Positions 392 through 19,680 of a stretch of DNA of 64,000 nucleotides are shown in pieces. A program made the translations under genes and the position numbers. Under the pieces are notes generated by a model. That model did not search any database and was not told where the DNA came from. It saw only the letters and a list, made by a program, of their open reading frames with translations. The stretch is taken from assembly GCA_905233345.1 (NCBI GenBank), contig CAJODQ010000014.1, positions 1 to 64,000 on the forward strand, given 5' to 3'. The DNA comes from an uncultured Bacteroidales bacterium (GTDB lineage: Bacteria > Bacteroidota > Bacteroidia > Bacteroidales > UBA932). Position 1 is the first letter of the stretch. Every line of letters starts with the position of its first letter.

Positions 392-1510
392 TTATGTTGT
401 ACGCTGGAAATGGGCTGTATAGCCCTCGTAGGATTGAATAACGGCTTGCAGAAGGAAGGGGTCCTCTTCGCAGCGGAAACGCCAGGCAATGGTCTCGGCC
501 ATCAATTTCCGGGAACGGGGCGCCAAGTATCGCTTGCGGGATTTGAGGATGCCACCCACGAAAGGGACGCCGCATTCCTGTCGCTGAAGTATGCGCTTGC
601 GCGGATGAAGGCGCAGAAAAAGTGTTTTTCTCAAAAAAGCATCGATGACATTGATGGAGGAAAGCAGCCGTGCCTTGTCGACACCGACGATGTAGAAGTC
701 GTCGACATAGCGGCCATAGTGCCGGTACTTGAGCTCCCGCTTCACGAAATGATCGAGGCCGTTGAGATAGATGTTGCTGAAAAGCTGGGAGGTGAGGTTC
801 CCGATGGGAAGGCCGCAATCGACGCGGGTCGTAAAGAGGCTCTTGGAGGCGGGCAGCCCTTCCCAGTCGGAGCGTGAACCCTTGACACGGCAGTGCTGTG
901 TAGGGTCGTTGAAGATGACCTGCTGCAGCAGATAGACCATCGTGCGATATCGAGGCTCACGGTCCATGCCCTTCTGCTGAAGCGTTCCGATTACGATATC
1001 GTAGAGCCTCAGCCGGTCAATGCTCATGAAGTAGCCCTGCAGGTCGAGCTTGAGGATCCAGCAGTCCTGCGTATAGTTGTTCGAAACGGAGCGGATATGG
1101 TGTTCCATACGCTCGATGGCGAAAAGGGTCCCCTTCCCCACCCGGCAGGAATAACTGTCGTAGATGAAAGTCGGCTCAAAGACCGGCGCCAGGTACATGA
1201 AGAGAAGGTGGTGGACAATCCGGTCCCGGAAGGTGGCAGCAAATACCTCCCGCTTGACCGGGCGGTTGACGATGAAGCACATGCTCCGGTCGACCTTGTA
1301 AGTCAGGGTGATGATTTCGTTGTACAACGCCACCATGTTGAAAGAGAGATTGCGCTCGAAACGCATCTGGGTATATGTATTCCGCTTATTGGCCCGGGCT
1401 TTATAATACGCAGTGAACAAATCCGTCAGCAGTTGCTCTTGGAATGGATGCTTAGACGAGACGGACAGACCGGAACGACTCCTTATTGTTGTTGTTGGCT
1501 GGATTAACAT
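392..1510 (-). CDS. DGR-type reverse transcriptase
   Basis: Group II intron-like reverse transcriptase that makes mutagenised cDNA from the template repeat in a diversity-generating retroelement. Visible motifs (372-residue frame): motif A LKLDLQGYF with Asp156, the DGR-diagnostic GLPIGNLTSQ at 233-242 (other reverse transcriptases have QGxxxSP), and RYVDD at 267-271 holding the catalytic aspartates. There is no maturase, RNase H or integrase domain, as expected for DGR enzymes. The ATG at 1510 lies inside the template repeat. The conserved N-terminus (LLTDLFTAYYKARANKR) begins only after residue about 25, so translation may start later, for example at a TTG near codon 31 or the ATG at 1366. 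It is the last gene of the fimbrillin-DGR operon and is followed by two hairpins. Confidence 0.93.
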   Translation of the reverse strand: MLIQPTTTIRSRSGLSVSSKHPFQEQLLTDLFTAYYKARANKRNTYTQMRFERNLSFNMVALYNEIITLTYKVDRSMCFIVNRPVKREVFAATFRDRIVHHLLFMYLAPVFEPTFIYDSYSCRVGKGTLFAIERMEHHIRSVSNNYTQDCWILKLDLQGYFMSIDRLRLYDIVIGTLQQKGMDREPRYRTMVYLLQQVIFNDPTQHCRVKGSRSDWEGLPASKSLFTTRVDCGLPIGNLTSQLFSNIYLNGLDHFVKRELKYRHYGRYVDDFYIVGVDKARLLSSINVIDAFLRKTLFLRLHPRKRILQRQECGVPFVGGILKSRKRYLAPRSRKLMAETIAWRFRCEEDPFLLQAVIQSYEGYTAHFQRTT

Positions 1511-1611
1511 TGTTATTGTTGATGTTCAGGTTGTAGCCGTTAGCAGCATCAGTTCCCTCAGTAGATGACCAGTAGTTGCCGTTGCTGCCGCGGTTGTTCC
1601 AGGCCGGGGAA
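1455..1611 (-). repeat. DGR template repeat (TR)
   Basis: This 157-base stretch aligns without gaps to 2562-2718 at a constant offset of 1107. Twenty positions differ, and every one is T on the plus strand of the template, i.e. adenine on the coding strand: 1487, 1490, 1493, 1495, 1510, 1511, 1520, 1525, 1526, 1531, 1532, 1541, 1553, 1554, 1576, 1577, 1582, 1583, 1594 and 1595. By my count 46 template adenines exist, and the 111 other positions are all identical. The template is rich in AAC/AAT codons, the classic DGR design. A short open frame across it ends at a TAA (1452-1454) and is not a gene. The TR overlaps the 5' end of the reverse transcriptase frame. Confidence 0.96.
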
Positions 1612-1789
1612 CCAGGTGCTTGAAGCAGCCGCTGCAGGGATGCCACGAGGGAAAGCCGGTTTTTCGGCAGGAAAACCTCATGACAGGCATGAAATAACTT
1701 ACTGTTCCCATATATATTGTCAGACGATCACGGAGTCACCGGTTTTCGGGGTTACAGTGGGCTGCTGAATCAATAACGCCCCGCATATC
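1612..1789. other. Gap between accessory gene and template repeat
   Basis: No supported gene. On the minus strand the 70 bases just 5' of the TR can be read as a peptide with EVFLP then SPAW, in frame with the TR pseudo-reading frame. This resembles the FLP strand preceding the variable region in the target protein and suggests a fossil of a lectin-like domain. No TAnnTTTG promoter for the template RNA was seen. Confidence 0.4.
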
Positions 1790-2485
1790 TTAGGCCTTGG
1801 CCGTTCTGCGGAGTCCTTCAAGTTGTATGCTGACGGAAACTATTCGTTCACTGTCAAGGGCAAAGGAATTGACCGATATCTGCCGCTGGTCACAAAGAAT
1901 CTGGAGCACAAAGGCCAGTTCCCTGCACTTTTCCTGTACCTCATCCACGCGAGCGTCCCGGTCGGGGGCTTCGTAAAAAGTCCGCAATCCGTAAGCGATG
2001 TCATACGACAGCCGCTTGGCCCGCAAGGCATGAGGGTCCCACATGTTCTTTGCGATATTCTTGCTCAAGCTGATGACGTGAAGATGCAGGTCGTAAGCCG
2101 TCTTGTAGACAGGCTGGTGCTCGATGACCGAAGTGTGGACCGTATACCGGTCTCCCGGATTGGCTTGTACGCGTGCCAACTCGGTCCATTCCTGGTACTC
2201 TACTTCATCCACGCTCTTTTCGATGTCGCACACCAGGCGCTTTTCGTCGAGTTCCTGCACAGGGTAGGCATAGAGCCACTTCTTGAGATTCGCCTCCGGA
2301 AAGCCCAGAGAGATCACATACCGGTTGACCGTCTTGATGAAACGGCGGCTCAGTTTGAAGTCGGCAATGTACCGGTGAAAGAGAAAAGCGGAATGCTCGT
2401 AGACTTTCAGGAACTTACCGGCCCGGTATAAGTAGATCCTGTTGGTGTTCGCGTCTTCGATGTCAAGAATTTCAGCAAAGGTCAT
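1790..2485 (-). CDS. DGR accessory protein: MutS-like N-terminus fused to Avd-like helical domain
   Basis: 231 residues, about twice the length of a classical Avd. Residues about 10-45 (IYLYRAGKFLKVYEHSAFLF) resemble the first strand-helix of MutS domain I (LFFRxGDFYExF). Residues about 130-228 form a helix-rich segment starting YKTAYDLHLHVISLSKNIAK and ending QLEGLRR, like the four-helix-bundle Avd family that binds the reverse transcriptase and template RNA. It lies between target gene and TR in the same orientation. From family knowledge, MutS-like (MSL) accessory genes occur in some DGRs; joining both parts in one chain is my reading of the sequence. It may alternatively be one divergent Avd-type family. 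Confidence 0.7.
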   Translation of the reverse strand: MTFAEILDIEDANTNRIYLYRAGKFLKVYEHSAFLFHRYIADFKLSRRFIKTVNRYVISLGFPEANLKKWLYAYPVQELDEKRLVCDIEKSVDEVEYQEWTELARVQANPGDRYTVHTSVIEHQPVYKTAYDLHLHVISLSKNIAKNMWDPHALRAKRLSYDIAYGLRTFYEAPDRDARVDEVQEKCRELAFVLQILCDQRQISVNSFALDSERIVSVSIQLEGLRRTAKA

Positions 2486-2508
2486 AGATCATGCATTGAT
2501 TTCAAACC

Positions 2509-2533
2509 TACCCCGGCGCCGGGCGCCGGGGTA
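2509..2533. repeat. GC-rich cruciform next to the variable repeat
   Basis: Perfect 12-bp inverted repeat: TACCCCGGCGCC (2509-2520), one centre base (2521), then its exact complement (2522-2533). It lies 28 bases beyond the 3' end of the VR and just after the target stop codon. In characterised DGRs such as the Bordetella phage element, a GC-rich hairpin at this place helps target recognition. No T-run follows on the minus strand, so a plain terminator is less likely. Confidence 0.75.
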
Positions 2534-2552
2534 AGGCAGAAAAGTAAAAAGA

Positions 2553-5387
2553 TTATTCTTTGACGAGACGGACAGACCGGAACGACTCCTTATCGTAGTA
2601 GCTGGCTGGATTAACACCGTTATTGTAGATGCCCAGGGCGTAGCCGTAAGCAGCATCAGAGCCCTCAGTAGATGACCAGTAGCCGCCGACGCTGCCGCGG
2701 GAGTTCCAGGCCGGGGAATACATCGAACCCCAACGACCGCAATAAGGCAGGAAGATACATGCTTCATCCCCCTTCGTCAATTTCTTGAAATTGTCGAGGG
2801 TAATGCTGGTATATCTGTTGCCTGTATAGTCGAAGTAGTTGGTGCTTCCGGCAGCCCGGTTCGCAAGGGCTTTGCATGCAACCTGGGCATTATCGGGGAA
2901 GATCAGCAGACCCTTGATCTCGCTCACACCGTAGACTTCTGCATCCAGGCCGGTGACCGTGATCTTCGTGTAGTGCTTGCCCGTGTAGGTCGTGGTCAGG
3001 CTGGCGATGTCGGCCGATGCCGTGCGCGTGGTTCCGTCAGTATTGACGATTTTTGCCCACTGAGCTTGCGTCGGCACTTTGAAACCGTCAAAGCTTACAG
3101 TCTGCTGCGAGTCAAAGGAACCATTTGAAGCGCTGAAGCCATCATTATTGGTGAAATACTTACCCAGGTTCACCCAACTGATGTAAGGTGTAGTTCCACT
3201 TGTAGAACCGATATTGTCCGGAGTGGGATCGGTAGAACCATATCCTTTCAATCCTGCCAGCTGGTTCAAATCTCCATCACTGGAAAGCTCGTAAGTGACC
3301 CCGCCGGATCCGTTACCCCTAGCGAGAAGGAAAGCGCGGGAGATGTTCAACCCTGCCACGCGTCCCTTGTTGCCGGAGAAACCGTCTGCGTAATAGACAC
3401 CGGTCACGACCGGATGGACTTCATAGTCAGCGGCAGATTCAACAGCGTCATCACCTGATTCAGCATAATCAGCAGCAACCGATGCCTTGACTTTCATGCA
3501 ATAGTCGTCGCTCAGGCTGGGAGATGTCATATCATCTAACGTAGCGGTAACCACCCGGGTGTCAGTATCCAGCGCCAAGCCGGCGAGGGCCTGCGATGCA
3601 CTATAGGCAATCTCAGGTTCCGGGATGGCAGTGCCGTATCCACCACCGACGTAGGTGATGACGGCCGCCGGAACAGTCGTCGTTGCATCTTCCGCCCAGA
3701 ACTTATGAGAAGCGGTGGGGAACTCGACGCTCGCGACGGCGTTGACATTGATCGAGTAAGAAGAGGAATAGGTGACATTGTCTTTCAATGCGATGACCGT
3801 GACGGTAGCAGAACCGACACCGTCGATGCTGGCAATCGCCCCGTCGTCTCCGAGTGTCAGGACACCCGTAGCAGGAGATACGGACCACGTGATCGCAGAA
3901 CCCAGAATGGCCTTTGCTCCTTCCAGGTCCTGCTCGTCGACATCCGAGAAGGAGAATTTCGGCGCCGGAAGCACGAGGCTGGCGGCATTTTCTTTCTTCC
4001 AGGCATAGATGGCTCCGGTAAAGGTCTCATCATTTTGAACGAAACGCACGCCCGAGAGGCCGGTACGGTTGACCGGAAGGTCGGCGTTGATGGTGGACTT
4101 CTCGTCCCATTCGGTCACATCGGCTTCGAACTTCACGCTCGTCATGCCCAGGTTGAGCGAGAGCGTATACTTCTTGCCGGCCTGCATGGTGAGAGTGACC
4201 TCCTGGGTAATGGCATTCTCGATGGAGCTGCCGTGGGTCTGTCCGTCGGAGAGGGTCGTGGCGAGTTTGTCGTCGACGGTCTCCACGTCGTAGACGATGG
4301 TCACCTTCATGGGCTCACCGGTCGGAATGACATAGACCGGAGCGGTCTGTGTCTCACTGTCGAAGAGGTTGACGGGCGTTTCCGTAACACCTGCCCGAGA
4401 CGTGCCGTCCTGCACGACCACCGGGTTGAGGCCGGACGGCGTCTCGTTGCGCGCCTCGGCGCCCGATACAGCCTCCTTGCCGTCGCGACGGCCGTCGTAG
4501 ATCGTCACGACATCCTGACTGAGCTTGCCGGTGCCGGCATAGTCAAACCAATTCGGATTGGTGTTCTCGCTCGTCCAGTTGGAGTTGAGGTTGAGGGAAC
4601 CCTTCGTGGTGAAGCCTTCGAAGGAAACCGAACGGACAAAGATCTTGGTAGCGGCCTCTTGTTCTGCCGTCATCCTCTCGGCGCTGAAATCGGCCTTGAT
4701 CTGCACGTTCAGCGCGGCGAGCGCGTGCTTGAAGTTGAACTTGATCTTGTCTTTGGCATTCGGCTTGACGGCATCGATATGAGGCCTGCCGGTATTCTCG
4801 TTGACAGCCCAGCAAAGGTCGACGTCGCCACCCGGATTGAGGGATGAGATGTACTTCACCATCGGGTCGCCCGTGGCGGAGTTGCGGCTCAAGGCCGTGA
4901 TGCCCTTATCGGGATCGGTCTCGACGATACCCGTCGAAGGAGTGACAAATACATGCGGCGCGTAAGCAAAGAAGGTGACGCGGTCGACCTCCTCGCTCAC
5001 GGCTTCCGTGCCGAACTCGTTGGGCCAGTACTTCAGCGGGGAGTAGGTCCATACATCTTCACCATCATCGTATGTGACTTTCGTGTTGTACATGAAGTCG
5101 GGTTTGGAGGTTTCGCTGTACATCTCGCCGTTGGCGTAGTAGCCGAAGACGCCGAAACCGGCGCTCTTCAGGTCAACCTTGCCAGCTTCAACATCGGTGA
5201 CAAGTTCACCGCCGGTACCCGCCTTCGTGTCGGTACCGCGGTTCAGATAGACGCCGAACCGGACGGCTTCGTCGTCCTTTTCCAGGTTCGACTTCTGCAT
5301 GTCGTCGACCACGTTGCAGGAGACCAGCAGCGAGGCAGCGGCAGCCAATGTCAGGAATATTTTATTCTTTTTCATTCTCTTGTTCAT
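2553..5387 (-). CDS. DGR target: fimbrillin-like lipoprotein with Ig-like and C-type-lectin-like domains
   Basis: 944 residues. The signal peptide ends in the lipobox LLVSC (Cys24), so the protein is probably a surface lipoprotein. Residues about 35-445 are a fimbrillin/Mfa-like module close to the next two genes (shared GFGVFGYYxNGE, PDFMYN, TYSPxKYWPNE, FFAYAP, FKHALA). Residues about 480-560 (ITWSVSPATGVLTL, GSATVTVIA) look like a bacterial Ig-like domain. The C-terminal roughly 250 residues resemble the Fibrobacter-paralogous/DUF1566 C-type-lectin or sulfatase-modifying-factor fold, with GYWSSTEG and ESFRSVRLV near the end. The VR encodes residues about 891-942, and 13 of its codons differ from the template. 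It is probably the adhesive or tip subunit; the ligand is unknown. Confidence 0.9.
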   Translation of the reverse strand: MNKRMKKNKIFLTLAAAASLLVSCNVVDDMQKSNLEKDDEAVRFGVYLNRGTDTKAGTGGELVTDVEAGKVDLKSAGFGVFGYYANGEMYSETSKPDFMYNTKVTYDDGEDVWTYSPLKYWPNEFGTEAVSEEVDRVTFFAYAPHVFVTPSTGIVETDPDKGITALSRNSATGDPMVKYISSLNPGGDVDLCWAVNENTGRPHIDAVKPNAKDKIKFNFKHALAALNVQIKADFSAERMTAEQEAATKIFVRSVSFEGFTTKGSLNLNSNWTSENTNPNWFDYAGTGKLSQDVVTIYDGRRDGKEAVSGAEARNETPSGLNPVVVQDGTSRAGVTETPVNLFDSETQTAPVYVIPTGEPMKVTIVYDVETVDDKLATTLSDGQTHGSSIENAITQEVTLTMQAGKKYTLSLNLGMTSVKFEADVTEWDEKSTINADLPVNRTGLSGVRFVQNDETFTGAIYAWKKENAASLVLPAPKFSFSDVDEQDLEGAKAILGSAITWSVSPATGVLTLGDDGAIASIDGVGSATVTVIALKDNVTYSSSYSINVNAVASVEFPTASHKFWAEDATTTVPAAVITYVGGGYGTAIPEPEIAYSASQALAGLALDTDTRVVTATLDDMTSPSLSDDYCMKVKASVAADYAESGDDAVESAADYEVHPVVTGVYYADGFSGNKGRVAGLNISRAFLLARGNGSGGVTYELSSDGDLNQLAGLKGYGSTDPTPDNIGSTSGTTPYISWVNLGKYFTNNDGFSASNGSFDSQQTVSFDGFKVPTQAQWAKIVNTDGTTRTASADIASLTTTYTGKHYTKITVTGLDAEVYGVSEIKGLLIFPDNAQVACKALANRAAGSTNYFDYTGNRYTSITLDNFKKLTKGDEACIFLPYCGRWGSMYSPAWNSRGSVGGYWSSTEGSDAAYGYALGIYNNGVNPASYYDKESFRSVRLVKE
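2562..2718 (-). repeat. DGR variable repeat (VR)
   Basis: It encodes the last part of the lectin-like domain. Compared with the template, Asn codons have become Ser, Val, Gly, Tyr, Ala and Asp, and one Thr has become Ser, in 13 codons. The coding-strand 3' end (2562-2586) contains no adenine and is identical to the TR, as expected for an initiation-of-mutagenic-homing site. The cruciform at 2509-2533 follows. Confidence 0.95.
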
Positions 5388-5393
5388 GTTAGG

Positions 5394-6854
5394 TTATTCA
5401 TTCGGATTGTTTGCCGGGAGATTGACGTCCGTGGATGCATTGGTCGTGTCATCCCATGCCGTAACCACAGCTTCGAACTTCACGCTCGTCAAGCCGAGAT
5501 GGAGTTTCAACTCATATCGCTTGCCGGCTTCGAGCTTCAGCACGTCACCGCTGACACCATCGAGGTAGATCGACTTCGAGATGGCATTGCTCACGCTGCT
5601 GCCGTGGGTCTTTCCGTCAGAGAGATAGGTGGAGAGGGTGCCGTCGGCGGTCTCCACGTCGTAGACGATCGTCACCTTCAGCTCCTCGTTGGTCGGGATG
5701 ACATAGATGGGTGCCGCAAGCGCAGCGGCAACTTCGTCGTCATCATCGGGGTCTTCAATCGCCACATCGAAAAGATTGACAGCCGTTTTGGTCACGCCGG
5801 CCGTCGGAGCGACGGCCGTCGCGTACATGTAGCTGTGCTCGGCATTGGCGGTCGTCGTGTAAGCGCCCGTCTGGATGATGGCAGCATTGAGGCCGGTCGG
5901 GGTCTCGGAGGAGGCCTGCGACACAGCTTCCTTGCCGTCGCGGCGGCCATCATAGACCGTCACCACATCGGAGGTCAGTTTGCCGGTTCCTGCCAGGTCA
6001 TACCAGTTCGGGCCCTCTTCCGCATTCGCGTTGGAGTTGAGGTTCAGGGCGCCCTTGGTCGCAAAGCCCTCGAAAGTCACCGAGCGGACGTAGACCTTGG
6101 TGAATGCATCAACCTCTATGGCATTTGCTTCATCGGCGTGATTGGCATCACGCAGCTTGTCGATGTCGGCGTCAATCTGCACGTTGAGCGAAGCGAGCGC
6201 GTGCTTGAAGGCGAAGCTCACTTTTTCAGTGGTATTCTGCTTGGTCATGTCGATGTTGGGCTCGCCGGTTTCGGCATCGACACCCCAACAGAGATCGACC
6301 GCCGCACCCGGGGTCATGGCTGCCACGTATTTCACCATCGGATCGCCCGTCGCGGAGTTGCGGCTCAAGCCGATGATGCCCTGGCTTGCATCGCCGGTCA
6401 CCACGCCGGTCGATGCGGTCACCGGCACATAAGGCGCATAGGCGAAGAAGCTCAGGCGGTCGACATCCTCGCTGACAGCGTTGGCGCCATGCTCGTTGGG
6501 CCAGTACTTGATGGGAGAGTAGGTCCAAACGTCATTGTCCTCGTCCCACGTAATCTTTTCGTTGTACATGAAGTCCGGGCGCGCCGTCTCACTGTAAAGT
6601 TCGCCGTTGGTGTAATAGCCAAAGACGCCGAAGCCGTCGACATTCCCGTCGCCGGAAGTCATCAAAGCAGCCGTAGTGAGCTCGCCGGCCCAGCCGGCCT
6701 TCGTGGCTACGCCGCGGTTGACATAGACGCCGAAGTTCACGGCCTGGTCGGGTGCCTTCCGCGCCTCGACCATCTCCGCGTTGTCTTCGACCACATTGCA
6801 CGCGGCCAGCAGTCCTGCCGCCGCCGCAATGATCAAAAGGGTTCTTTTCATCAT
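5394..6854 (-). CDS. Fimbrillin-like (Mfa-like) lipoprotein
   Basis: 486 residues; signal peptide with lipobox GLLAAC (Cys19). One fimbrillin/Mfa-like module fills the chain and is closely related to the N-terminal half of the following DGR target and to the previous gene: GFGVFGYYTNGELYSET, PDFMYN, WTYSPIKYWPNEHG, FFAYAPYVPV, LSRNSATGDPMVKY, FKHALASLNVQI and the C-terminal LHLGLTSVKFEAVVTAWDD. There is no lectin-like tail. Such proteins are exported as lipoproteins and assembled into surface fimbriae by donor-strand exchange in related species. Six bases separate it from the target gene, so the two are co-transcribed. Confidence 0.87.
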   Translation of the reverse strand: MMKRTLLIIAAAAGLLAACNVVEDNAEMVEARKAPDQAVNFGVYVNRGVATKAGWAGELTTAALMTSGDGNVDGFGVFGYYTNGELYSETARPDFMYNEKITWDEDNDVWTYSPIKYWPNEHGANAVSEDVDRLSFFAYAPYVPVTASTGVVTGDASQGIIGLSRNSATGDPMVKYVAAMTPGAAVDLCWGVDAETGEPNIDMTKQNTTEKVSFAFKHALASLNVQIDADIDKLRDANHADEANAIEVDAFTKVYVRSVTFEGFATKGALNLNSNANAEEGPNWYDLAGTGKLTSDVVTVYDGRRDGKEAVSQASSETPTGLNAAIIQTGAYTTTANAEHSYMYATAVAPTAGVTKTAVNLFDVAIEDPDDDDEVAAALAAPIYVIPTNEELKVTIVYDVETADGTLSTYLSDGKTHGSSVSNAISKSIYLDGVSGDVLKLEAGKRYELKLHLGLTSVKFEAVVTAWDDTTNASTDVNLPANNPNE

Positions 6855-6894
6855 ACTTTGATTGTTTTGTTTGGTTAAGTGGTTATATGTGTTT

Positions 6895-8208
6895 TTATTG
6901 AGAATTGATGGCTGATCCTTCCGACCACTCGGTGACGGCGCTCTCCACCTTCACGCTCGTCATGCCGAGATGCAGCGCAAGCGTATAGCGGCTGCCGGAG
7001 CGAAGCGTCAGGGGAAGCGCCTGCGTAAAGGTATTTGCCACCGAGCGTCCATTTGTCGCACAATCGCCCAGCGTACCAGCGAGCTTGGCGTCGATGGTTT
7101 CTACATCGTAAGCGATGGTCACCTTCAGCGGGGCGCCGGTGGGAATCACATAGACCGGGGCGGACGGATCGTTGCTGGAAAAGAGATTGACGGCCGTGGC
7201 GGTCACACCCGCAGACATGCTGCCGCTGCCGTAAGGCAGCGACTGGACGACAATCGGATTCAGAGGGGCTGGCTGCTCGTTGCCGGCTGCGCCGCCATTC
7301 ATGCCTTCCTGCCCGTCGCGGCGGCCGTCGTAGAGTGTCACGGGAGCGAAGCCCAGCAGCCCGCCGGTCAGGCTTCCCCACTCCGGCGTAGGCTCATCTT
7401 CGCTCCAGGACGAGTTGAGATTGAGCGTCCCCCGCAGGGCAAAGCCCTCGAAAGTGAGGGAACGGATCCAGATGTGCGTGGCGGCATCCTGCGCCGTCGG
7501 CGTGTCGCCGCTGCCGTGGACGATGTCGAAGTCGGCATCGACCGTAACGGCGAGGGCGGCGAGGGCGTGCTTGAAGTCGAACGAAACCTTGTCGTTCGCA
7601 TTCGGTTTAACCAGGTCGACCAGCGGGTGGCCGTCGCTGTCTCCCACACCCCAGCAGAGATCGACGCCTTCTCCAGGAACAAGGCTGGACACATATTTCA
7701 CCTGCGGGTCGCCCGTGGCTGCGCTGCGCGTGAGGGAGGTGATGCCGGAGGCGGTGCTTCCCTCTACCAGGCCCGTAGCAGGATCGACGGCCACGTAGGG
7801 CGCGTAGGCGAAGAAGGAGAGCCGGTCGGTCACGCGGCTGTCGGCGCCCTCGCCGAAAGCATTGGGCCAGTATTTCAACGGCCAATAGGTCCAAGCATCC
7901 TCGGCGCTGTAGGTCGTCCGGGTGTTGTACATGAAGTCCGGACTGCATCCGCCGTCGTACCACGCATCCTGCGTATAGTAGCCGAAGATGCCAAAGCCCG
8001 CCTCGCGCAGATTCACCACCCCGTCCGTCTCCTTGAGTTCCCCAGCCGCACCCGCCTTTGTGAGAATATCACGACTCACATAGGCGCCGAAGGTGACGGC
8101 TACGGGCCCGCTGCCGGCGAGTCCTTCTCGTCCAGCATCGACGACGCTGCAGGAGAATATCAGGGCACCTGCAAGGAGAAGGAGAGGGATGTTGAATCGT
8201 CTTTTCAT
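6895..8208 (-). CDS. Fimbrillin-like (Mfa-like) lipoprotein
   Basis: 437 residues with signal peptide and lipobox LIFSC (Cys20). It has the same module as its two downstream neighbours: AGFGIFGYYTQDAWYD, CSPDFMYN, WTYWPLKYWPN, FFAYAPYVAV, FDFKHALAALAV and a C-terminal LHLGMTSVKVESAVTEWSE. It is likely a structural subunit of the same surface polymer. The degree of similarity to the next two genes points to tandem duplication. The 40-base gap to the next gene shows no promoter consensus. Confidence 0.87.
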   Translation of the reverse strand: MKRRFNIPLLLLAGALIFSCSVVDAGREGLAGSGPVAVTFGAYVSRDILTKAGAAGELKETDGVVNLREAGFGIFGYYTQDAWYDGGCSPDFMYNTRTTYSAEDAWTYWPLKYWPNAFGEGADSRVTDRLSFFAYAPYVAVDPATGLVEGSTASGITSLTRSAATGDPQVKYVSSLVPGEGVDLCWGVGDSDGHPLVDLVKPNANDKVSFDFKHALAALAVTVDADFDIVHGSGDTPTAQDAATHIWIRSLTFEGFALRGTLNLNSSWSEDEPTPEWGSLTGGLLGFAPVTLYDGRRDGQEGMNGGAAGNEQPAPLNPIVVQSLPYGSGSMSAGVTATAVNLFSSNDPSAPVYVIPTGAPLKVTIAYDVETIDAKLAGTLGDCATNGRSVANTFTQALPLTLRSGSRYTLALHLGMTSVKVESAVTEWSEGSAINSQ

Positions 8209-8215
8209 GGTTCGT

Positions 8216-9310
8216 CTACAAGATCAGGGTTGACAGCGAGACCGTGATGTCTGCGCTCTGGCCCGCCTCCAGGCTTCCCCGGAGGAAAAGCGTGCGGCTG
8301 TTGGTTTGCGTGACGGGATCCTCCACTCCCCGGACGATCTTGAGCGTCACCGTGACAGTGGCCGTCTGGTCGACGCCATCGACATTGAGCGGAATGGCAA
8401 AGATGCCTCTGCCCGATTTCCGCCACGAATGTACCACGGATGACGCGCCGTCATAGCTATAGAGCGTTTCGTCGCCGCTCCACGAGAACGCCGTACGCAC
8501 GGTCAACGGGTTTTCGCTCAACACCGCCTGCCACGAGGGCGTCTCGGGGTCCGCAGACCAGAGCACAAGCCGTCCCTTTTCCAACAGAGAATAAGTCACC
8601 GTAACGGAAGTAAGGCTGAGCGCGATCGAAGAAGTGCTGCCGCCATCGACCAGCGCCTTGAGCTGTGACATCAGGGCGGCGCCACAGCCGATTGTCACGT
8701 TGTCGCCCACGCAGGCAAGCGCATGGCGGAAGGTAAAGGGCAGGCGGGCGGAGATTCCGGGACGGGTCTGGTCGACAAGTTCGGCATAGAGCAAGTCGAC
8801 TTGGTAGTTTGCGTCGGGATGCAGGCGGTAAAGAAGCCAGGGATCCGACGGCTCGGCAGGACGGCTCCATGAAGGTATGCAGTAGCCCGCGGGGTTCGTA
8901 TAAGGGAGCGAGGCATCTCCGCTGCTGTAGGGCGCGTATGCAAAGAAGCTCAGATAGTGCTGGCCCGCCTCCTCGTCAGAGGGCCAGTAGGCAAGCGGAG
9001 AGTAGGTCCAGCCGTCTCCCTCACCCCATGAAAGACGTTCGTTATAGAGGAAGTCCGGCGAGACCGTCACCTCTCCGTAGGTATGAATGCCGGTGTGGCA
9101 GGCAAAGACGCCGAAGCCACCCGTGCGGAGTGCCTCCTCCCCAATCTCTCCGGACGCTTTTGTTGCGGGGAAGGTGCCCTGCACGACGTTGGCCGAAAAG
9201 CCTATGGCTATCTGCGCATCACCGCGCCGGAGGGAGAAGTCCTGGCACGACTGGGTGAGGACCATCGGAAAGAGGAAGGCAAGGGCCGCAAAAAATGGGA
9301 GCTTGTGCAT
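8216..9310 (-). CDS. Divergent fimbrillin-like lipoprotein
   Basis: 364 residues from the ATG at 9310. I chose this start because it gives a clean signal peptide (MHKLPFFAALAFLFPMVL) ending in TQSC (Cys22); longer in-frame starts add a hydrophilic leader. The module is recognisable but diverged: GGFGVFACHTGIHTYGE, SPDFLYNERLSWG, WTYSPLAYWPSDEE, YLSFFAYAPYSS, RLPFTFRHALACV. Probable anchor, adaptor or minor subunit of the same structure. It lies 7 bases upstream of the next fimbrillin gene. Confidence 0.8.
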   Translation of the reverse strand: MHKLPFFAALAFLFPMVLTQSCQDFSLRRGDAQIAIGFSANVVQGTFPATKASGEIGEEALRTGGFGVFACHTGIHTYGEVTVSPDFLYNERLSWGEGDGWTYSPLAYWPSDEEAGQHYLSFFAYAPYSSGDASLPYTNPAGYCIPSWSRPAEPSDPWLLYRLHPDANYQVDLLYAELVDQTRPGISARLPFTFRHALACVGDNVTIGCGAALMSQLKALVDGGSTSSIALSLTSVTVTYSLLEKGRLVLWSADPETPSWQAVLSENPLTVRTAFSWSGDETLYSYDGASSVVHSWRKSGRGIFAIPLNVDGVDQTATVTVTLKIVRGVEDPVTQTNSRTLFLRGSLEAGQSADITVSLSTLIL

Positions 9311-9366
9311 AGGGCATCGTTTCTGAGTATGGGGATACGTGTATGGCATGGCAAGGGCTCCTGTTA

Positions 9367-10488
9367 TTACATAGTGACGTCTATATTCCCGCCGTTCTGC
9401 CACGGTGTCACTTTCGCATCAAAGCCGGCGGAGCCCTTCGCATCGACATAGGGCAGGCGCGGCGCCCACTCGATGGGTATCTCGATCCGCACCAGCAACT
9501 GGTCTTCGAAGATCGTGACCGACTCCTCCCCTACATCGAAGTGGAAATGAAGAATCGTCTCTTCGTCGCGCAGCAGGAATTCGAGGTTGAGGCGCAGGTG
9601 TGGCAGAACAGCGTAGCCTTCCGTTTTTGTCAGTTCCTGCTCCGGGAGGCCGAAAGTGTGGATGGAGGTGCTGACTACGCCCAGGGAGTCGGAGAAGTGC
9701 TGCGTGCTCCAACTCTCGAGCGGGTGGAGGCAGGGCGACGCCGTATGGCGCAGTTCATTCAGCCAGTTGCCGTCGGCCAGTCCCGCGATGGTGCCCTTCA
9801 TGCTGTGGAGGTATTTCAGTCCCTTGACGTAGACCTGGACCCGCAGATTCCACGTGATGGGATGCGGCTGGCACTCAAAGGTCTGGGTGAGCAGCGAGGC
9901 TTCATATTCCTCGCGCGTCTCCCACGGGATCAGGTCGCCCTCCACGCCCGTAATGATCTGCACATGCTTGAGCGTGTCGGCGCACATCGGGTCGGGAGCG
10001 GCGAGGAGCGTATAGAAGCCCGTCGTATCATTGAGCGGGACCACCATCCCCGCCGGAACTGCCCGGCCGCCGTAGAGTTCATCGTTCTCTACTGGCTGGT
10101 TCACGGAAGGGGCAGCCTTGACCAGCGCCGTCTCCGGACGATCCATGCCCGTGAAGACAAGACTGCCGAACTCGGCAGGCGACCAGTCGAAGATGATCCC
10201 CGTAAAAAGGCCCCGCGGCAGGTTCAGCCAACTGTGGCTGACGTCGGAGGTGGTGATACGGCGATTGCGGCCATCCCCCTCCTCACTCAGGAACCAGGCG
10301 GTCATGCCGCCCGGACGCGACGGGCACTCCGACCAGTCGGTGTAGAGTTCCACCTGGCGGTACTCGTCGGTATAGACCCACAGCTCGCGGCGCAGGCAAG
10401 CTGTGGTGACGGCCAGCATGGAGAGTAGCATGAATGAACGGACCGCCAGTTGTTTCGCAAATACAATATGTCCTCGGCTCCTACTCAT
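9367..10488 (-). CDS. DUF5119-like lipoprotein of the fimbrial operon
   Basis: 373 residues from the ATG at 10488, which overlaps the stop of the DUF3575 gene by 8 bases (translational coupling). A long N-terminal signal region ends in the lipobox VTTAC (Cys31), followed by LRRELWVYTDEYRQVEL. The LYTDWSECPSRPGGMTAWF region matches the DUF5119 family as I know it, which travels with DUF3575 and fimbrillin genes in Bacteroidales. It probably acts in anchoring or assembly of the polymer; no enzymatic motif is visible. Confidence 0.75.
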   Translation of the reverse strand: MSRSRGHIVFAKQLAVRSFMLLSMLAVTTACLRRELWVYTDEYRQVELYTDWSECPSRPGGMTAWFLSEEGDGRNRRITTSDVSHSWLNLPRGLFTGIIFDWSPAEFGSLVFTGMDRPETALVKAAPSVNQPVENDELYGGRAVPAGMVVPLNDTTGFYTLLAAPDPMCADTLKHVQIITGVEGDLIPWETREEYEASLLTQTFECQPHPITWNLRVQVYVKGLKYLHSMKGTIAGLADGNWLNELRHTASPCLHPLESWSTQHFSDSLGVVSTSIHTFGLPEQELTKTEGYAVLPHLRLNLEFLLRDEETILHFHFDVGEESVTIFEDQLLVRIEIPIEWAPRLPYVDAKGSAGFDAKVTPWQNGGNIDVTM

Positions 10489-11818
10489 CGTCGTCAAGCT
10501 TTTTGAGCGTCCGGAAATGAAACGGACGGTTGTTGAAGAGATAGACCAGCGAGATGTTCAAGTGGGTGACGCCGGGCCAGAGCAGACGCCCTGTGCTGTG
10601 CCAGATCAGGTGCTGGTCCCACGCCTCTTCCCGCCCCTCGGGATAGACCGACCCACCGTAATAGCGGCGATACTGCGAAGCCACCGCACCCGCGCCGATC
10701 CCGAAATCGAGCGCCCAGTGACGGCCGAGGCGGCACTGGTAGCCGAAGTTGAAGTATGCGTTGAGGAACTCACCCTGATACCCTTCATGGGTCATCCACT
10801 CCCAGTCGTACTTGCCGCCCGCCACCGCAAAGCCGATATGCCAGCCGTCGAGCCAGCGATGGTAGGTCCGGTTGCCAAGCCACAGCCGTATCTCTGCGCC
10901 CAGGTTCAGGAACTGCGAGGCCTGCGCGTTCGTATTCCATATAAACCACGGGTGGAAATATTCGACCTCGAGGCTCCAGCGGTTGCGCGTCCCCAGCGGC
11001 AACTCCAGCTGGACGTTGGGAGCTACCACGCTCCAGAGCGCGAAATTGGTTTTCACGGCCCAGGCGGGCGTCTGGTCGGCCGGCACGAGAGTGTCGGGTT
11101 CCGGCTCAACGGGGACTGGTGTATAATAGGTGTAATGGTGATTCTCATGGATGACCACCACTGTGTCCCGGATGACGAGCGTGTCTTTCACCACCAGCGT
11201 ATCGCGCTCCGGGTGCCAGCTTACGACGGCCGTTCCCCCGCTGCGGAGCGGAGCAAGGTAGCGTGCAAGCAGTTCCGGCCACACTTTGCCGCCGTAGAGT
11301 TCGCGGAGCCGTCGCTCGCGCGGGCCCCGCCAGTAGCTGTTTTCCGGCTCCGGCATGCTAAGGATGGAGAGCACCGTATCGCGCCACGGTTCATGGCTCG
11401 CCGCCACGCTGGTGTAAAGATCGTCCCAGCGGGGCCCCAGATTGTGGACCTCGATACGGCCGACTCGACCGCCGAAACGTGTTTGGATGAGTTCAGCGAT
11501 GGCCTGGCCGCGTCCTTCACCCAATTCGCGGTTGTGGCTGGCAGGGCCCTCCGGCGAAGCACCGGCATAGATGTCGAACTGGATGCCGGCGGCGTTCCGT
11601 CCTTCATAGTCGTGGAAGAATCGCTCCTCGAACTGCTGCCAGCGGCGGGTATTGTCGCCGAACGACATGTCTATAGAGGTGCTGTCGAGACGGAAATAAA
11701 TCTCGAGCGTATCGGTGGCCGAAACAACCGGGGCGGACAGTGGCTGAGCGACGGCGCAAAAAGGCGTCAGAAGCAGCCATAGCATCAAGCAGAAGTTCCA
11801 CGGTCGGGTTCGGAGCAT
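10481..11818 (-). CDS. DUF3575 / OmpA-like outer membrane protein, first gene of the fimbrial operon
   Basis: 445 residues. It has a signal peptide (MLRTRPWNFCLMLWLLLTPF...AVAQ). Residues about 60-170 look OmpA-C-like (IYAGASPEGPASHNRELGEG, RGQAIAELI). A Pro/Thr-rich hinge (YYTPVPVEPEPD) follows, then a C-terminal DUF3575 beta-barrel with many aromatic strands (WSLEVEYFHPWFIW, YLFNNRPFHF). Likely an outer-membrane platform for the downstream lipoproteins. No TAnnTTTG promoter reads toward it in this assembly; the only consensus promoter nearby lies in the invertible segment and points the other way. Confidence 0.82.
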   Translation of the reverse strand: MLRTRPWNFCLMLWLLLTPFCAVAQPLSAPVVSATDTLEIYFRLDSTSIDMSFGDNTRRWQQFEERFFHDYEGRNAAGIQFDIYAGASPEGPASHNRELGEGRGQAIAELIQTRFGGRVGRIEVHNLGPRWDDLYTSVAASHEPWRDTVLSILSMPEPENSYWRGPRERRLRELYGGKVWPELLARYLAPLRSGGTAVVSWHPERDTLVVKDTLVIRDTVVVIHENHHYTYYTPVPVEPEPDTLVPADQTPAWAVKTNFALWSVVAPNVQLELPLGTRNRWSLEVEYFHPWFIWNTNAQASQFLNLGAEIRLWLGNRTYHRWLDGWHIGFAVAGGKYDWEWMTHEGYQGEFLNAYFNFGYQCRLGRHWALDFGIGAGAVASQYRRYYGGSVYPEGREEAWDQHLIWHSTGRLLWPGVTHLNISLVYLFNNRPFHFRTLKKLDDDE

Positions 11819-11830
11819 TCGCGTGTGTAA

Positions 11831-11856
11831 ATTAAACGTTCGTTTTATTTACATGC
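11831..11856 (+). repeat. Left inverted repeat of the invertible segment
   Basis: 26 bases containing AAACGTTCGT at 11834-11843. It matches the complement of 11974-11999 at 23 of 26 positions. It lies 12 bases upstream of the DUF3575 start codon. Confidence 0.88.
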
Positions 11857-11943
11857 GTCTTCTGTAACCCATTGAGGGCCCTTCCCAGGGGCCCCTCTAA
11901 CACTAATTTGCAAAAAAACAACAGAATAAAAAACGACAAAAAA

Positions 11944-11974
11944 TTTGTCAGACCGAAAAAAAGAATTAACTTTG
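11944..11974 (+). promoter_or_regulatory. Promoter inside the invertible segment, pointing away from the operon
   Basis: TTTG (11944-11947), 19 bases, then TAACTTTG (11967-11974): a full match to the Bacteroidota -33/-7 consensus. It drives rightward transcription antisense to the 3' end of the recombinase gene. No comparable motif reads leftward between 11999 and 11819. Confidence 0.85.
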
Positions 11975-11999
11975 CATGAAGATAAAACGAACGGTTAAT
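11974..11999 (-). repeat. Right inverted repeat of the invertible segment
   Basis: Partner of 11831-11856. Its outer end directly abuts the recombinase stop codon at 12000-12002, so inversion leaves the recombinase reading frame intact. Its inner end shares the last G of the -7 element. Confidence 0.88.
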
Positions 12000-12650
12000 C
12001 TACTCAAACTCACCACTCTCACAAGGGTGGTGAGTCGTTTTTTCAACCTTGTTTTCGGTTTCGTAATCGTGCAGCCAGTTGTAGAGCGTTTTGGTCGCAA
12101 CGGAGCAGCGACGGGCGATTTCCACCTTCGGACAGCCATCTTCCAGCCAGCGAAGAATCTCATCCCGTTTGTCATCCAATTTCCGGGTCCGGTTGCGCAC
12201 ACCCGCGGGGCGGCCCAGATGGACACCCTCTTCCCGCTTCCTGACCAGCGCCTCCCGCGTACGCTGGCTGATGAGCGAACGCTCGATTTCAGCGCAAAGG
12301 CCGAAAGCAAAGGCCATCACCTTGCTCTGAATGTCCTCTCCCAGCCGGTAGTTTTCCTTGATGGCCCAGACCTGGCACTCCCGCGCCATGCAGTGGTTCA
12401 GGATCTCCATAATCATGAAGAGGGTCCTTCCCAGCCGCGACAATTCCGCGCAGACAATCAGGTCGTTTTTGCCTACCCGATTCAACAGTTTCCCCAATCG
12501 CCGTTTGCCATAGTCTTTTGTACCGGAAATGGTCTCCTCGATCCATCCATCGATCTGGATCTCCCGTTCGCGGCAGAAACGTGCAATCTCGTGCCGCTGG
12601 TTGAGCACGGACTGCCTGTCCGTGCTCACCCTGATGTAGCCGTAATTCAT
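12000..12650 (-). CDS. Mpi-like serine site-specific recombinase (DNA invertase)
   Basis: 216 residues. The N-terminal resolvase/invertase domain carries GYIRVSTDRQ with the catalytic serine (Ser9), then ELSRLGRTLFMIMEIL and AEIERSLISQRTREAL. A C-terminal helix-turn-helix (CPKVEIARRCSVATKTLYNWL) follows. Length and sequence match the Bacteroides fragilis multiple-promoter invertase type. The stop codon abuts the right inverted repeat of the adjacent invertible promoter, which is therefore the likely substrate; other sites in the genome may be too. It is transcribed on the same strand as the fimbrial operon, after a terminator that isolates it from the nitroreductase gene. Confidence 0.9.
   Translation of the reverse strand: MNYGYIRVSTDRQSVLNQRHEIARFCREREIQIDGWIEETISGTKDYGKRRLGKLLNRVGKNDLIVCAELSRLGRTLFMIMEILNHCMARECQVWAIKENYRLGEDIQSKVMAFAFGLCAEIERSLISQRTREALVRKREEGVHLGRPAGVRNRTRKLDDKRDEILRWLEDGCPKVEIARRCSVATKTLYNWLHDYETENKVEKTTHHPCESGEFE
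12008..12043 (+). terminator. Intrinsic terminator facing the OFF-oriented promoter
   Basis: Perfect 9-bp stem ACTCACCAC (12008-12016) with GTGGTGAGT (12027-12035), 10-base loop, then CG and TTTTTT (12038-12043) on the plus strand. It lies about 30 bases after the promoter's expected start site and inside the 3' end of the recombinase coding sequence. It would end the OFF-orientation transcript almost at once. Confidence 0.78.
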
Positions 12651-16339: not shown

Positions 16340-17499
16340 GACTGGCAGAGGATCAGGATTTTCGTTTGGTTGAGGGTGGTAGCGAAAAGGTGGCGGTTTC
16401 CGCCGCCAGGGATGCCCAGACGCTGCCGCAGCGCGTCGGTGGCGAGGGGAAAATTCAGGGCGGTCAGCTCGAGGCGGTCGAAGCGGCGGCGGAGGTCCTG
16501 GATGGCCGCCTTGCTCCAGGGAATGACTTCTTCCACGGCGAAACATTTGCCGGGAAATCCGTCCACCGGCGCATCGGCGGTGTAGAGCTGGGTGCTGGGG
16601 GCGAGCTTGGCCACGCCATAGCGCGCAGAGAGCAGGCGGAAAGCGCCGGCCTTGCGCAAGACCTTGGCCGGCTGGAAGAGATAGCTCCCGATGCGCTGGG
16701 CATAGCGGACTTCCGCGGCCGGCTCCTCGTCGGGATGGAAGGCGAATCGGACGCCGCCCTCCGCAGCGACGATCAGCGGGGCAGCGGGCTGAGACGGTTC
16801 CAGCAGAAGCAGCAACTCCTTCACTTCTCCGCCGGCGCCCACGATGTGCAGCTCCCTGGTTTCGGGCAGTTGCCGCAGGGTGCGGGAGATATCGGCCATC
16901 GGGGAAATCTTGGCCAGGACACGCGGCGCGTGCTGAAGGAGGCGTTCTTTGACTTCGAGCAGGTTCGGTTCGCAGCCGGCGATGTCGTAGACCCGTTGCG
17001 CGGCTTTCCCGCGACGGGCCGGGTCCAGGTAGATGAGGTCGAAGCCCTCTTTATCCTGCGCCAGCCAGGCGATGCCGTCGCCTTCGTGCACGCTGATGTT
17101 GCCAGCGCCCAGCAGCGGGAAATTGTGGCGGGCGGCGGCGCAGAGCGCGCCGTCCCGTTCGCAGTAGTCAACGCTGGCCGCTGTCGCGCTCATGGCCCAA
17201 CTGTCCACGCCCAGACCGCCGGTCAGGTCGGCGATGCGACCGCCCGCCGGCACGAAAACCTGCTTGTAGCGGGCTGTTTCCTCGGAACTGCACTGCTCCA
17301 GCGGCAGACTGGCCGGGTAGTCGAGCGCCGGGCAGGCATGCCATGCCGGCACCTTGTCGCGTAGCTTGCGCCGCGCCGCGATGATCCGCGCCGCCCGCCG
17401 TACGTCGAGCGCCGGCCAGCGGTCCGCCGACAACAGCAGGCGCTCCGGATCGTCATCGGCATGTTCCAGGAGAAAACGGGTGAATATTTCGTCGGACAT
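16336..17499 (-). CDS. SAM-dependent methyltransferase with THUMP-like C-terminal domain
   Basis: 387 residues from the ATG at 17499 (MSDEIFTRFLLEH). A class I methyltransferase core is visible: IADLTGGLGVDSWAMS (SAM-binding loop), DYCERDGALCAAARHNF, and FDLIYLDPARR, which resembles the DPPY-like catalytic motif of RNA/DNA base methyltransferases. The C-terminal about 120 residues fit the THUMP-like domain described in this family. The target is probably RNA, but that is inference. The stop/start overlap with the LOG gene indicates one operon. Confidence 0.82.
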   Translation of the reverse strand: MSDEIFTRFLLEHADDDPERLLLSADRWPALDVRRAARIIAARRKLRDKVPAWHACPALDYPASLPLEQCSSEETARYKQVFVPAGGRIADLTGGLGVDSWAMSATAASVDYCERDGALCAAARHNFPLLGAGNISVHEGDGIAWLAQDKEGFDLIYLDPARRGKAAQRVYDIAGCEPNLLEVKERLLQHAPRVLAKISPMADISRTLRQLPETRELHIVGAGGEVKELLLLLEPSQPAAPLIVAAEGGVRFAFHPDEEPAAEVRYAQRIGSYLFQPAKVLRKAGAFRLLSARYGVAKLAPSTQLYTADAPVDGFPGKCFAVEEVIPWSKAAIQDLRRRFDRLELTALNFPLATDALRQRLGIPGGGNRHLFATTLNQTKILILCQS

Positions 17500-17541
17500 C
17501 TCTACAAAGCCGGCGTTCCTGGCCCGGCATGACAAATCAGC

Positions 17542-19680
17542 TTACGGCCGCGGCGGGAAAGACGTCGCGGCTTTTTTCTGGTAGAATTCAAACAGGCAGT
17601 CCGGCAGCGGCTGCTCAAGCAGATACTTGTACCAGAACTTGTAGTCCTGCATGGCTGAGTGCATGCCCTGGTCACCGCGGTAGCCGTGCATGCCGTCGGG
17701 ATAGATCATCAGTTCGAAGTCCTTGTGGTCATTCTGGAGCTGATCGATCAGCTGCAGCGTGTTCTGGAAGTGGACGTTGTCGTCGCCCGTGCCGTGGGTC
17801 AGGCGCAGCATGTTGCTGTCGTCGCCCTTGTAGTTCCCGACCCGGTCCATCACGCGCGAGCGCTGGTAACCTTTCGGATTGTCCTGCGGACGGTCCATGT
17901 AGCGCTCGGCATAGTGCGTGTCGTACAAACGCCAGTCGTAGACACCGCCGCCGGCGATGCCGTACTGGAAGTGTTCGTTGCCTTCGGTCACGCAGAGCGT
18001 GGTCATCGTGCCGCCGAAGGAGAAGCCCTCAACGCCGATCTTGTCTTCAGCCACGAAGGGCATCTGGCGGAAATAATCGATGCCGTCGCAGAAGTCATCC
18101 AGCTCCAGGATGCCGAGGTTGCGGTAGACCGCTTCGACGCCTTTCTTGCCGAAGTGGCCGCCAGCCCGGTTGTCGAGCGTCACCAGAATCACGCCGTGAT
18201 AGGGCCACCACTGGCTGTTCATGGTCACGCCGCGCCAGCTTTCCCGCACCTGGGGATTGTCGGGACCGCCGTAGATGTTGACCTTCACCGGATAGCGCTT
18301 GTTCTTGTCGAAATCGACCGGCCAGGTGACGGACGCCGGGATGCGCAGGCCGTCACGGGTCGTGATGTAGACCAGCTCGGGCAGGGCGATGGCGTAGTCA
18401 TCGAATTTCGAGCCCTTCGCATCGTAGAGGACTTTGACCTGCTTGGCCGGGTCCACGTCGCCCGAATTGGGCACGGTGATGAGCACCAGCTGCGTGGGCG
18501 TCGTGTAGTTGGAGGCCAGGGCCGCCACATACTTGCCGTCCTCGGATATCTGCACGCCCGAGAAGCTGAGGTCGCCGTAGGACAGGCGCTGCAGCGCCTT
18601 GCTCTTGAGGTTCACCCGGTAGATATCCACGCGGGTGGTCGCCGCGCGCTTGGCGGTGAAATAGAGGTGTTTCTTGTCGACCTTCAGCAGGTTGACGCCC
18701 CAGTTCTCCCCGGTGGTGAGCTGCTCGAACTGCTTGCCGTCGTAGGACAGGAAATAGATCTGCTGCCAGCCCGTGAAATCGCGCACGATGTAGATGCCTT
18801 CCTTCGAGAAGAGCATGCCGTCCATCCAGTCGATCCAGCAGTCCTGGTGCTCCTGGTAAACCAGGACCTTGCTGCCGGTGGCCGGCGTGACGGAATAGAG
18901 CTTGAAATTGTCCTGGGCGCGGTCCATCCAGCTGACCATCAGCTTCGTGCCGTCACCGCTCCAGAAGGGCGTGCCGAAATACTGATCCTCCTTCGGGTCG
19001 AAGTCGGCCCAGACGGTCTCTCCCCCATTCGCAGACACGAAGCCCAGCTTCACCTCGGGATTCGGGTCGCCGGTCTTGGGATAGCGGGTCTGGTTGAGCG
19101 AGCCGTGCTGCCCCTTCGGAGAATAGATGGGGAACATCGGCACCTGGGAATTGTCGAAGCGGTAGTAGGCAATCACCTTGCTGTCGGGCGACCACCAGAA
19201 GGCGCGGTACTGCGACGGACGTCCGAAGATCTCCTCGTAGTACACCCAGGAGGCGTAGCCATTGAGGATCAGGTCGCTGCCGTCCCAGGTATGGCGGGTG
19301 ACGTGTTTCGAATGCACGTCAATAGAATAGAGGTCGTTGTTGAGCGTGAAAGCGATCTTCGTGGAGTCGGGCGACCAGGTCGGATTGACCCAGCCGGGCA
19401 CCAGTTCCTCGGGCCGCGCCCCGCGCATCCGCGGCCGCGACACGCCATCCGAACGGAAGGTCCCTTCTTTCAGCGAATAGACATAGGAATCGAAGCCCGC
19501 CCGGTAGCGCAGCGTGCCGTCTTTGTCGAAGCCCGAGATGAAAGGAGCGGGCCGGACGATATCTTCCGGAAAAGCATTCAGTAATTCTTTATCGGTAAAG
19601 CGCTTGCCAGTGAGCGCGTTCTGGCCTTGCACAGGCAGCAGCAGCGCGAGGGCCAACAAGGTAAGCAGGAGTTTTTTCAT
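17542..19680 (-). CDS. S9 family prolyl oligopeptidase (DPP IV-like)
   Basis: 712 residues with a signal peptide (MKKLLLTLLALALLLPVQGQ), so secreted to the periplasm. An N-terminal beta-propeller of the DPP IV type (NPTWSPDSTKIAF, YRAFWWSPDSKVIAYYRF) is followed by an alpha/beta hydrolase domain with nucleophile elbow VEGFSFGGT, the acid near HGTGDDNVHFQN and catalytic His in YPDGMHGYRG. It removes N-terminal dipeptides from peptides in the family; exact specificity is unproved. It sits in a long minus-strand run behind the YugP-like protease. Confidence 0.9.
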   Translation of the reverse strand: MKKLLLTLLALALLLPVQGQNALTGKRFTDKELLNAFPEDIVRPAPFISGFDKDGTLRYRAGFDSYVYSLKEGTFRSDGVSRPRMRGARPEELVPGWVNPTWSPDSTKIAFTLNNDLYSIDVHSKHVTRHTWDGSDLILNGYASWVYYEEIFGRPSQYRAFWWSPDSKVIAYYRFDNSQVPMFPIYSPKGQHGSLNQTRYPKTGDPNPEVKLGFVSANGGETVWADFDPKEDQYFGTPFWSGDGTKLMVSWMDRAQDNFKLYSVTPATGSKVLVYQEHQDCWIDWMDGMLFSKEGIYIVRDFTGWQQIYFLSYDGKQFEQLTTGENWGVNLLKVDKKHLYFTAKRAATTRVDIYRVNLKSKALQRLSYGDLSFSGVQISEDGKYVAALASNYTTPTQLVLITVPNSGDVDPAKQVKVLYDAKGSKFDDYAIALPELVYITTRDGLRIPASVTWPVDFDKNKRYPVKVNIYGGPDNPQVRESWRGVTMNSQWWPYHGVILVTLDNRAGGHFGKKGVEAVYRNLGILELDDFCDGIDYFRQMPFVAEDKIGVEGFSFGGTMTTLCVTEGNEHFQYGIAGGGVYDWRLYDTHYAERYMDRPQDNPKGYQRSRVMDRVGNYKGDDSNMLRLTHGTGDDNVHFQNTLQLIDQLQNDHKDFELMIYPDGMHGYRGDQGMHSAMQDYKFWYKYLLEQPLPDCLFEFYQKKAATSFPPRP

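Follow-up and report, generated by a model that had tools for sequence, protein, structure and literature searches.

A diversity-generating retroelement and a predicted invertible promoter at one predicted type V pilus locus of an uncultured Bacteroidales bacterium

In this work we present the analysis of a diversity-generating retroelement (DGR) found in the genome of an uncultured Bacteroidales bacterium (assembly GCA_905233345.1), within the first 64,000 nucleotides of contig CAJODQ010000014.1, which are referred to below as the window. We propose, with a probability of about 0.8, a reading of the sequence in which the DGR rewrites the gene of a predicted pilus-tip protein and a predicted invertible promoter switches the pilus operon to which this gene belongs. 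According to this proposal, the reverse transcriptase (RT) would make a copy of a template with errors at adenines, probably in cooperation with a fused MutS-I-like/Avd-like protein. The error-bearing copy would replace sequence at the 3' end of the tip gene, and the promoter, located beside a serine invertase gene, would turn the operon on or off. Other loci used for comparison are given by their L numbers where they have to be told apart.

Results

Template and variable repeats

The initial annotation of the locus had reported a gap-free alignment of a 157-base template repeat (TR; 1455..1611, minus strand) with a variable repeat (VR; 2562..2718, minus strand), in which all the differences fell on template adenines. 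Our recount reproduced it exactly, with 157 columns, no gaps and 20 mismatches, each of them a T on the plus strand of the template, which is an A on the coding minus strand, while none of the 111 non-A positions (0/111) differed. Adenines occupy 46 of the 157 coding-strand positions of the template, and the hypergeometric probability of finding 20 of 20 differences on them by chance is 5.8e-13. Mismatches at template G, C or T, named beforehand as a refuting observation, numbered zero. At the changed sites the VR carries G (10), T (7) or C (3), and the last 32 nt of the two repeats show no differences. Fourteen codons are altered between TR and VR, and 13 of these changes are non-synonymous. 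Of the TR codons, 16 are AAC or AAT, and substitution of A can produce a stop in only one (AAG). When gapless repeat pairs with mismatches confined to one template base were sought in the first 14 kb, TR/VR was returned as the A-confined pair, and no pairs confined to C, G or T came up. In the assembly (2.32 Mb, 68 contigs, 89.4% complete) the template matched only this TR and this single VR.

Because the differences are restricted to adenines, the RT is intact and has the catalytic YxDD motif, an Avd-like domain is present and an intact target open reading frame carries the VR at its 3' end, the sequence supports the view of a complete and genuine DGR that once acted on this VR. The earlier claim of a DGR that has been active was thus borne out, and the DGR is complete as had been stated, but the extent assigned to it (392..2718) was too narrow, as the system reaches to about 12650; the predicted pilus-tip nature of the target, the fusion in the accessory gene and the predicted invertible segment at the operon promoter had gone unrecognised.

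On the minus strand, 28 nt after the VR, there is a GC-rich hairpin with a perfect 12-bp stem (2509..2533; folding z -4.95; 0 of 100 shuffles as good). We surveyed such structures in 24 loci including the window, and eight of them (the window, L004, L008, L016, L020, L021, L022 and L086) had a stem of at least 9 bp, a score of at least 16 and no shuffle out of 100 as good; weaker stems were present in seven loci, and in the remaining nine no stem of at least 6 bp was found. In the DGR of phage BPP-1 the hairpin after the VR is needed for efficient homing and has a 4-nt GRNA loop, according to the accessible part of that report (PMC3240598), from which the loop in the window, of 1 or 3 nt, differs.

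Reverse transcriptase and its start codon

The DGR reverse transcriptase (392..1510, minus strand, 372 aa) scored 48.1 bits against RVT_1 (cut-off 29.6), and its translation contains both motifs named in the initial annotation, YVDD and IGNLTSQ, the latter being a mark of DGR RTs. PADLOC returned 63 models matching the RT, the best of which was a generic RT model (113.3 bits); a Cas1-RT model scored 72.2 and DRT models at most 59.6. No model matched the accessory protein described below.

The start ATG of the RT, at 1510, is placed inside the TR, with the first 18-19 codons lying in the template and an overlap of 56 nt. Since no in-frame ATG, GTG or TTG occurs between the end of the template and the conserved RT block LLTDLFTAYY, translation of the RT starts within the template, unless another start codon is used. 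The same arrangement, with all in-frame RT starts before the LLTDLF block located in the template, was observed in 6/6 loci of the window clade with a detected template (the window and L004-L008); in L003, the seventh member of the clade, no template was detected. In nine other loci (L015, L016, L020, L021, L022, L024, L026, L032 and L043) the listed RT start follows the template, and in L031 the RT open frame crosses the template, with the listed start upstream. In BPP-1 the spacer between TR and brt folds and recruits RT and Avd, as described in the part of PMC12875486 available to us, whereas in the window the TR continues into the coding region of the RT; any such recruiting element here would overlap that region.

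An order-wide search with the RT gave 37 matches in 29 of 393 Bacteroidales genomes, the window's included; the surrounding stretches were examined for 29 of the 37 matches, and many of these contigs end before the operon start. In the genus of the window the RT was matched in 5 of 40 genomes, again counting the window's own, and the template spacing in L004 (Candidatus Cacconaster equifaecalis) and in genome G003, each on a contig of 4603 nt, is the same as in the window, which makes it likely that the window comes from this Bacteroidales genus. Thirteen relatives were found on viral contigs, none more than 45% identical.

Fused accessory protein

The gene at 1790..2485 (minus strand, 231 aa) had been annotated as Avd-like. 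An Avd-like accessory domain is indeed present, but the protein is an in-frame fusion of two domains and not Avd alone: residues 1-106 are MutS-domain-I-like, and residues 121-231 constitute a four-helix bundle like that of Bordetella Avd. The Avd of BPP-1 is a single domain. We use the name Avd-like domain because the window's protein gave no match to Pfam bAvd at E 0.1, while 14 of its 30 homologues match this family, and the name MutS-I-like because the Pfam MutS_I score of 17.0 bits is below the cut-off of 20.6, while 20 of the 30 homologues match it at E 0.1. VIA was uninformative on residues 1-106, and the accessory alignment, compared with PDB sequences, gave two matches at E 0.7, which were taken as chance and rejected.

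In many related DGRs the MutS-I-like protein and Avd are encoded by separate genes, and their fusion occupies two separate positions in the RT tree. The second, separate fusion is seen at L039:4724-5644 and L030:512-1288, and in L039 it follows the RT instead of preceding it. In the literature searched for the fusion, no title or abstract opening names it.

Target gene and pilus operon

The VR is situated near the 3' end of the gene at 2553..5387 (minus strand), whose product is a 944-aa predicted lipoprotein (LLVSC motif, read by eye). We predict that it is the tip adhesin of a type V pilus, because its N-terminal, fimbrillin-like half (residues 24-440) shares 54% identity with the fimbrillin of the adjacent gene (5394..6854) and is followed by about 500 extra residues, with the VR at their 3' end. 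Against Fib_succ_major, the family used to look for a C-type-lectin-like (FISUMP) variable domain, the C-terminus scored 23.5 bits, below the cut-off of 33.9, and the model of this domain, built from a 21-sequence alignment, had a mean pLDDT of 42.5. PDB sequence searches with the C-terminal alignment and with the whole tip protein gave no match, and for residues 600-944 the only relative among the best 7994 candidates by shared words was the window's own protein.

The region 2553..11818 is a predicted type V (Mfa/FimA) pilus operon, encoded on the minus strand, and the DGR lies directly behind it on the 3' side. It begins with a DUF3575 gene (10481..11818; 76.6 bits, cut-off 21.1), followed by a DUF5119 gene (9367..10497; 77.7 bits, cut-off 27) and by three fimbrillin genes with Mfa_like_1 matches over the cut-off of 27 bits: 8216..9403 (395 aa counted from the first start codon; 34.5 bits), 6895..8208 (437 aa; 31.7 bits) and 5394..6854 (486 aa; 50.4 bits). 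The assignment to type V pili is based on these three matches together with a tip pilin bearing an extra C-terminal domain.

At the other side of the DGR the contig opens inside a 29-residue N-terminal fragment (1-87; MANYLDVAKSW...), so that the assembly truncates the next gene downstream of the DGR. The neighbouring nitroreductase has a match in 36 of 40 genomes of the genus, including the window's, and in the six genus genomes that were examined the ABC-transporter gene of the window and the peptide of 1-87 were both missing from its vicinity. Rfam searches at the gathering threshold and tRNA searches returned no matches.

Predicted invertible promoter

Between the DUF3575 gene and a gene for a 216-aa serine invertase of the Mpi family (12000..12650, minus strand; NF009949, 294.9 bits, cut-off 272; the only match in the assembly) we found two 33-nt inverted repeats, at 11824..11856 and 11974..12006, with arms 117 nt apart and complementary at 28 of 33 positions. 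Mpi is the name of the global invertase of Bacteroides fragilis and also that of the NCBIfam model. This is the only pair of arms in the 64 kb with at least 27/33 complementary positions at a gap of 60-300 nt, and the best pairs in five simulated first-order Markov sequences reached 22-24. The segment between the repeats holds a promoter of Bacteroides type, TTTG-N19-TAACTTTG (11944..11974, plus strand), pointing away from the pilus operon, which is the only exact match on the plus strand of the window to TTTG-N17-22-TAnnTTTG, the Bacteroides promoter consensus; the sensitivity of the scan is low, since exact sites of this consensus are few in the 64 kb. The layout is that of an inverton, with inverted repeats around a promoter and an adjoining invertase gene.

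We therefore predict a phase switch, which, because the promoter faces away from the pilus operon, would be assembled in the OFF state. By arithmetic, after inversion the promoter would face the operon, and its -7 box would end at 11856, approximately 38 nt ahead of the start codon of the DUF3575 gene. The core of the inverted repeat was not found elsewhere in the assembly at up to 3 mismatches, and its exact layout, searched with a strict pattern, was absent from 392 other Bacteroidales genomes.

Recombinases and repeats at other loci

In L022, an Alistipes DGR-pilus locus, we observed the same repeat core, a promoter facing away and an adjoining serine invertase (Resolvase, 116.9 bits) that is 40% identical to the window's; the genome has two others elsewhere, one of them 63% identical. 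Tyrosine recombinases (Phage_integrase over the cut-off) are located 310, 560 and 845 nt upstream of the corresponding operons in L016, L116 and L120, where inverted repeats of 38, 18 and 13 nt, respectively, are present, those of L116 and L120 being weak. Altogether, a recombinase adjoins five of the seven DGR-pilus operons with the DUF3575 gene in view (the window, L016, L022, L116 and L120), and none was detected with four queries beside the other two, L021 and L129. An A-only TR/VR pair is present in six of these seven operons, the exception being L129; L120 yielded two G-confined control pairs besides the A-only one. For comparison, a recombinase was found within the fetched flanks of up to 1.5 kb in 2 of 30 DUF3575 loci (L164 and L189) from a search of 295 genomes. 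The difference (5/7 vs 2/30) gives Fisher P = 0.0009, uncorrected for kinship and for non-random sets. As the sets were gathered differently, some flanks were short, four recombinase queries were used, kinship was uncorrected and the DGR status of the 30 loci was not checked, we treat the association as a lead.

Several other loci displayed unusual repeat arrangements. In L116 a template-like and a variable repeat (1781-1967 and 17421-17607) are about 15 kb apart and differ at 8 of 187 nt, each of the changes falling on a template A. The matching template is the upstream one, and the RT found in this stretch adjoins the target, not the template. Several template-like repeats lie between avd and the RT in L025 (7281-9355; Alistipes, rabbit), and arrays were also found in L027, L012, L013 and L014. 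The five repeats of L025 are spaced 469-473 nt apart and are mutually 81-89% identical; its VR differs from the third one by 9 changes over 188 nt, at template A only, while comparison with the other four shows 18-29 non-A changes over 189 nt, which looks like the use of a single template out of several. Three A-only repeat pairs within one 7.8-kb stretch of L134 suggest several targets or templates.

Discussion

By analogy with BPP-1, RNA of the TR would be reverse transcribed and would home into the VR. The 944-aa protein would be placed at the pilus tip and bind a ligand through its variable domain, and inversion of the promoter segment would direct transcription into the operon. Two layers of variation would result, one deciding whether the pilus is made and the other what its tip recognises.

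The presence of duplicated tip and fimbrillin genes in the same operon could suggest that TR and VR arose by ordinary duplication of a gene end and diverged by drift; the confinement of all 20 differences to template A (P = 5.8e-13), together with the absence of pairs confined to C, G or T from the first 14 kb, refutes this origin and leaves it a negligible probability. A relic, that is a DGR which formerly diversified the VR and no longer works, is improbable, though less so. It would agree with a single VR in one assembly and with a pilus promoter pointing away from the operon as assembled; set against it are intact reading frames of the RT, the accessory protein and the target, zero non-A differences accumulated between TR and VR, and a template in which just one codon can turn into a stop by substitution of A.

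Slightly less probable again is an explanation in which the repeats at 11824 and 11974 are regulator sites or belong to the invertase gene's own control, and the pilus is transcribed from a non-consensus promoter. A weak TT-NN-TTTG box on the minus strand at 11918 could indeed serve the operon in its present orientation, the only one seen in a single assembly, and the low sensitivity of the promoter scan also leaves room for it. In contrast, two 33-nt arms with a consensus promoter between them and the assembly's only Mpi-family invertase adjoining, as well as the recurrence of this layout, core included, in Alistipes L022, argue for the invertible promoter.

The invertible promoter might also gate the DGR, which is a more speculative extension and, in our judgement, rather doubtful: by read-through past the tip gene it would drive the fused protein, the TR and the RT, so that the tip would be rewritten only in pilus-displaying cells, and the fusion would place the MutS-like accessory, Avd and the RT in one particle. 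Only a lone -7-like box, at 2510 beside the hairpin, was noticed before the accessory gene, and the scan, insensitive as it is, found no full consensus promoter there, which would allow read-through from the pilus promoter.

Diversification of type V pilus tips by DGRs is the already known part of this system. The accessible text of a review (PMC12632263) states that DGRs diversify tip pilins of type V pili in Bacteroides, citing Macadangdang et al. 2024; compared with those systems through the review's description only, the window additionally has the fused accessory protein, the RT start in the TR and the serine-invertase inverton at the operon promoter. A DGR target joining Mfa2 and Fib_succ_major, described in 2014 from a human stool metagenome, is likewise a fimbrillin-type lipoprotein, but, in contrast to the window, neither an operon nor a fusion or a switch is mentioned for it in the available part of that report (PMC4159848). 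With BPP-1 the locus shares RT, Avd (here as an Avd-like domain), TR, VR and a GC-rich inverted repeat after the VR, although the loop of the hairpin differs (PMC12875486, PMC3240598, both in part). The phase-variable loci of Bacteroides fragilis resemble the window in having an invertible promoter and an invertase; in the same accessible portion of the review, the invertible capsule promoters of this species are under one global invertase and a locus switched by a tyrosine recombinase contains a fimbrial-type open reading frame, encoding a pilin-like protein, but no DGR is tied to them (PMC12632263). In the accessible text of the literature searched we found no case of a DGR tied to an invertible promoter.

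In the fused protein the MutS-like DGR accessory is tied to Avd, and since structures show where Avd sits on the RT, the fusion offers a handle on the role of this accessory. With the RT start placed within the template, RNA features required beyond the template would have to sit in the RT coding sequence, which can be tested. If the switch works, random on/off control of the pilus and targeted rewriting of its tip, two known ways of surface variation, would be combined in one locus.

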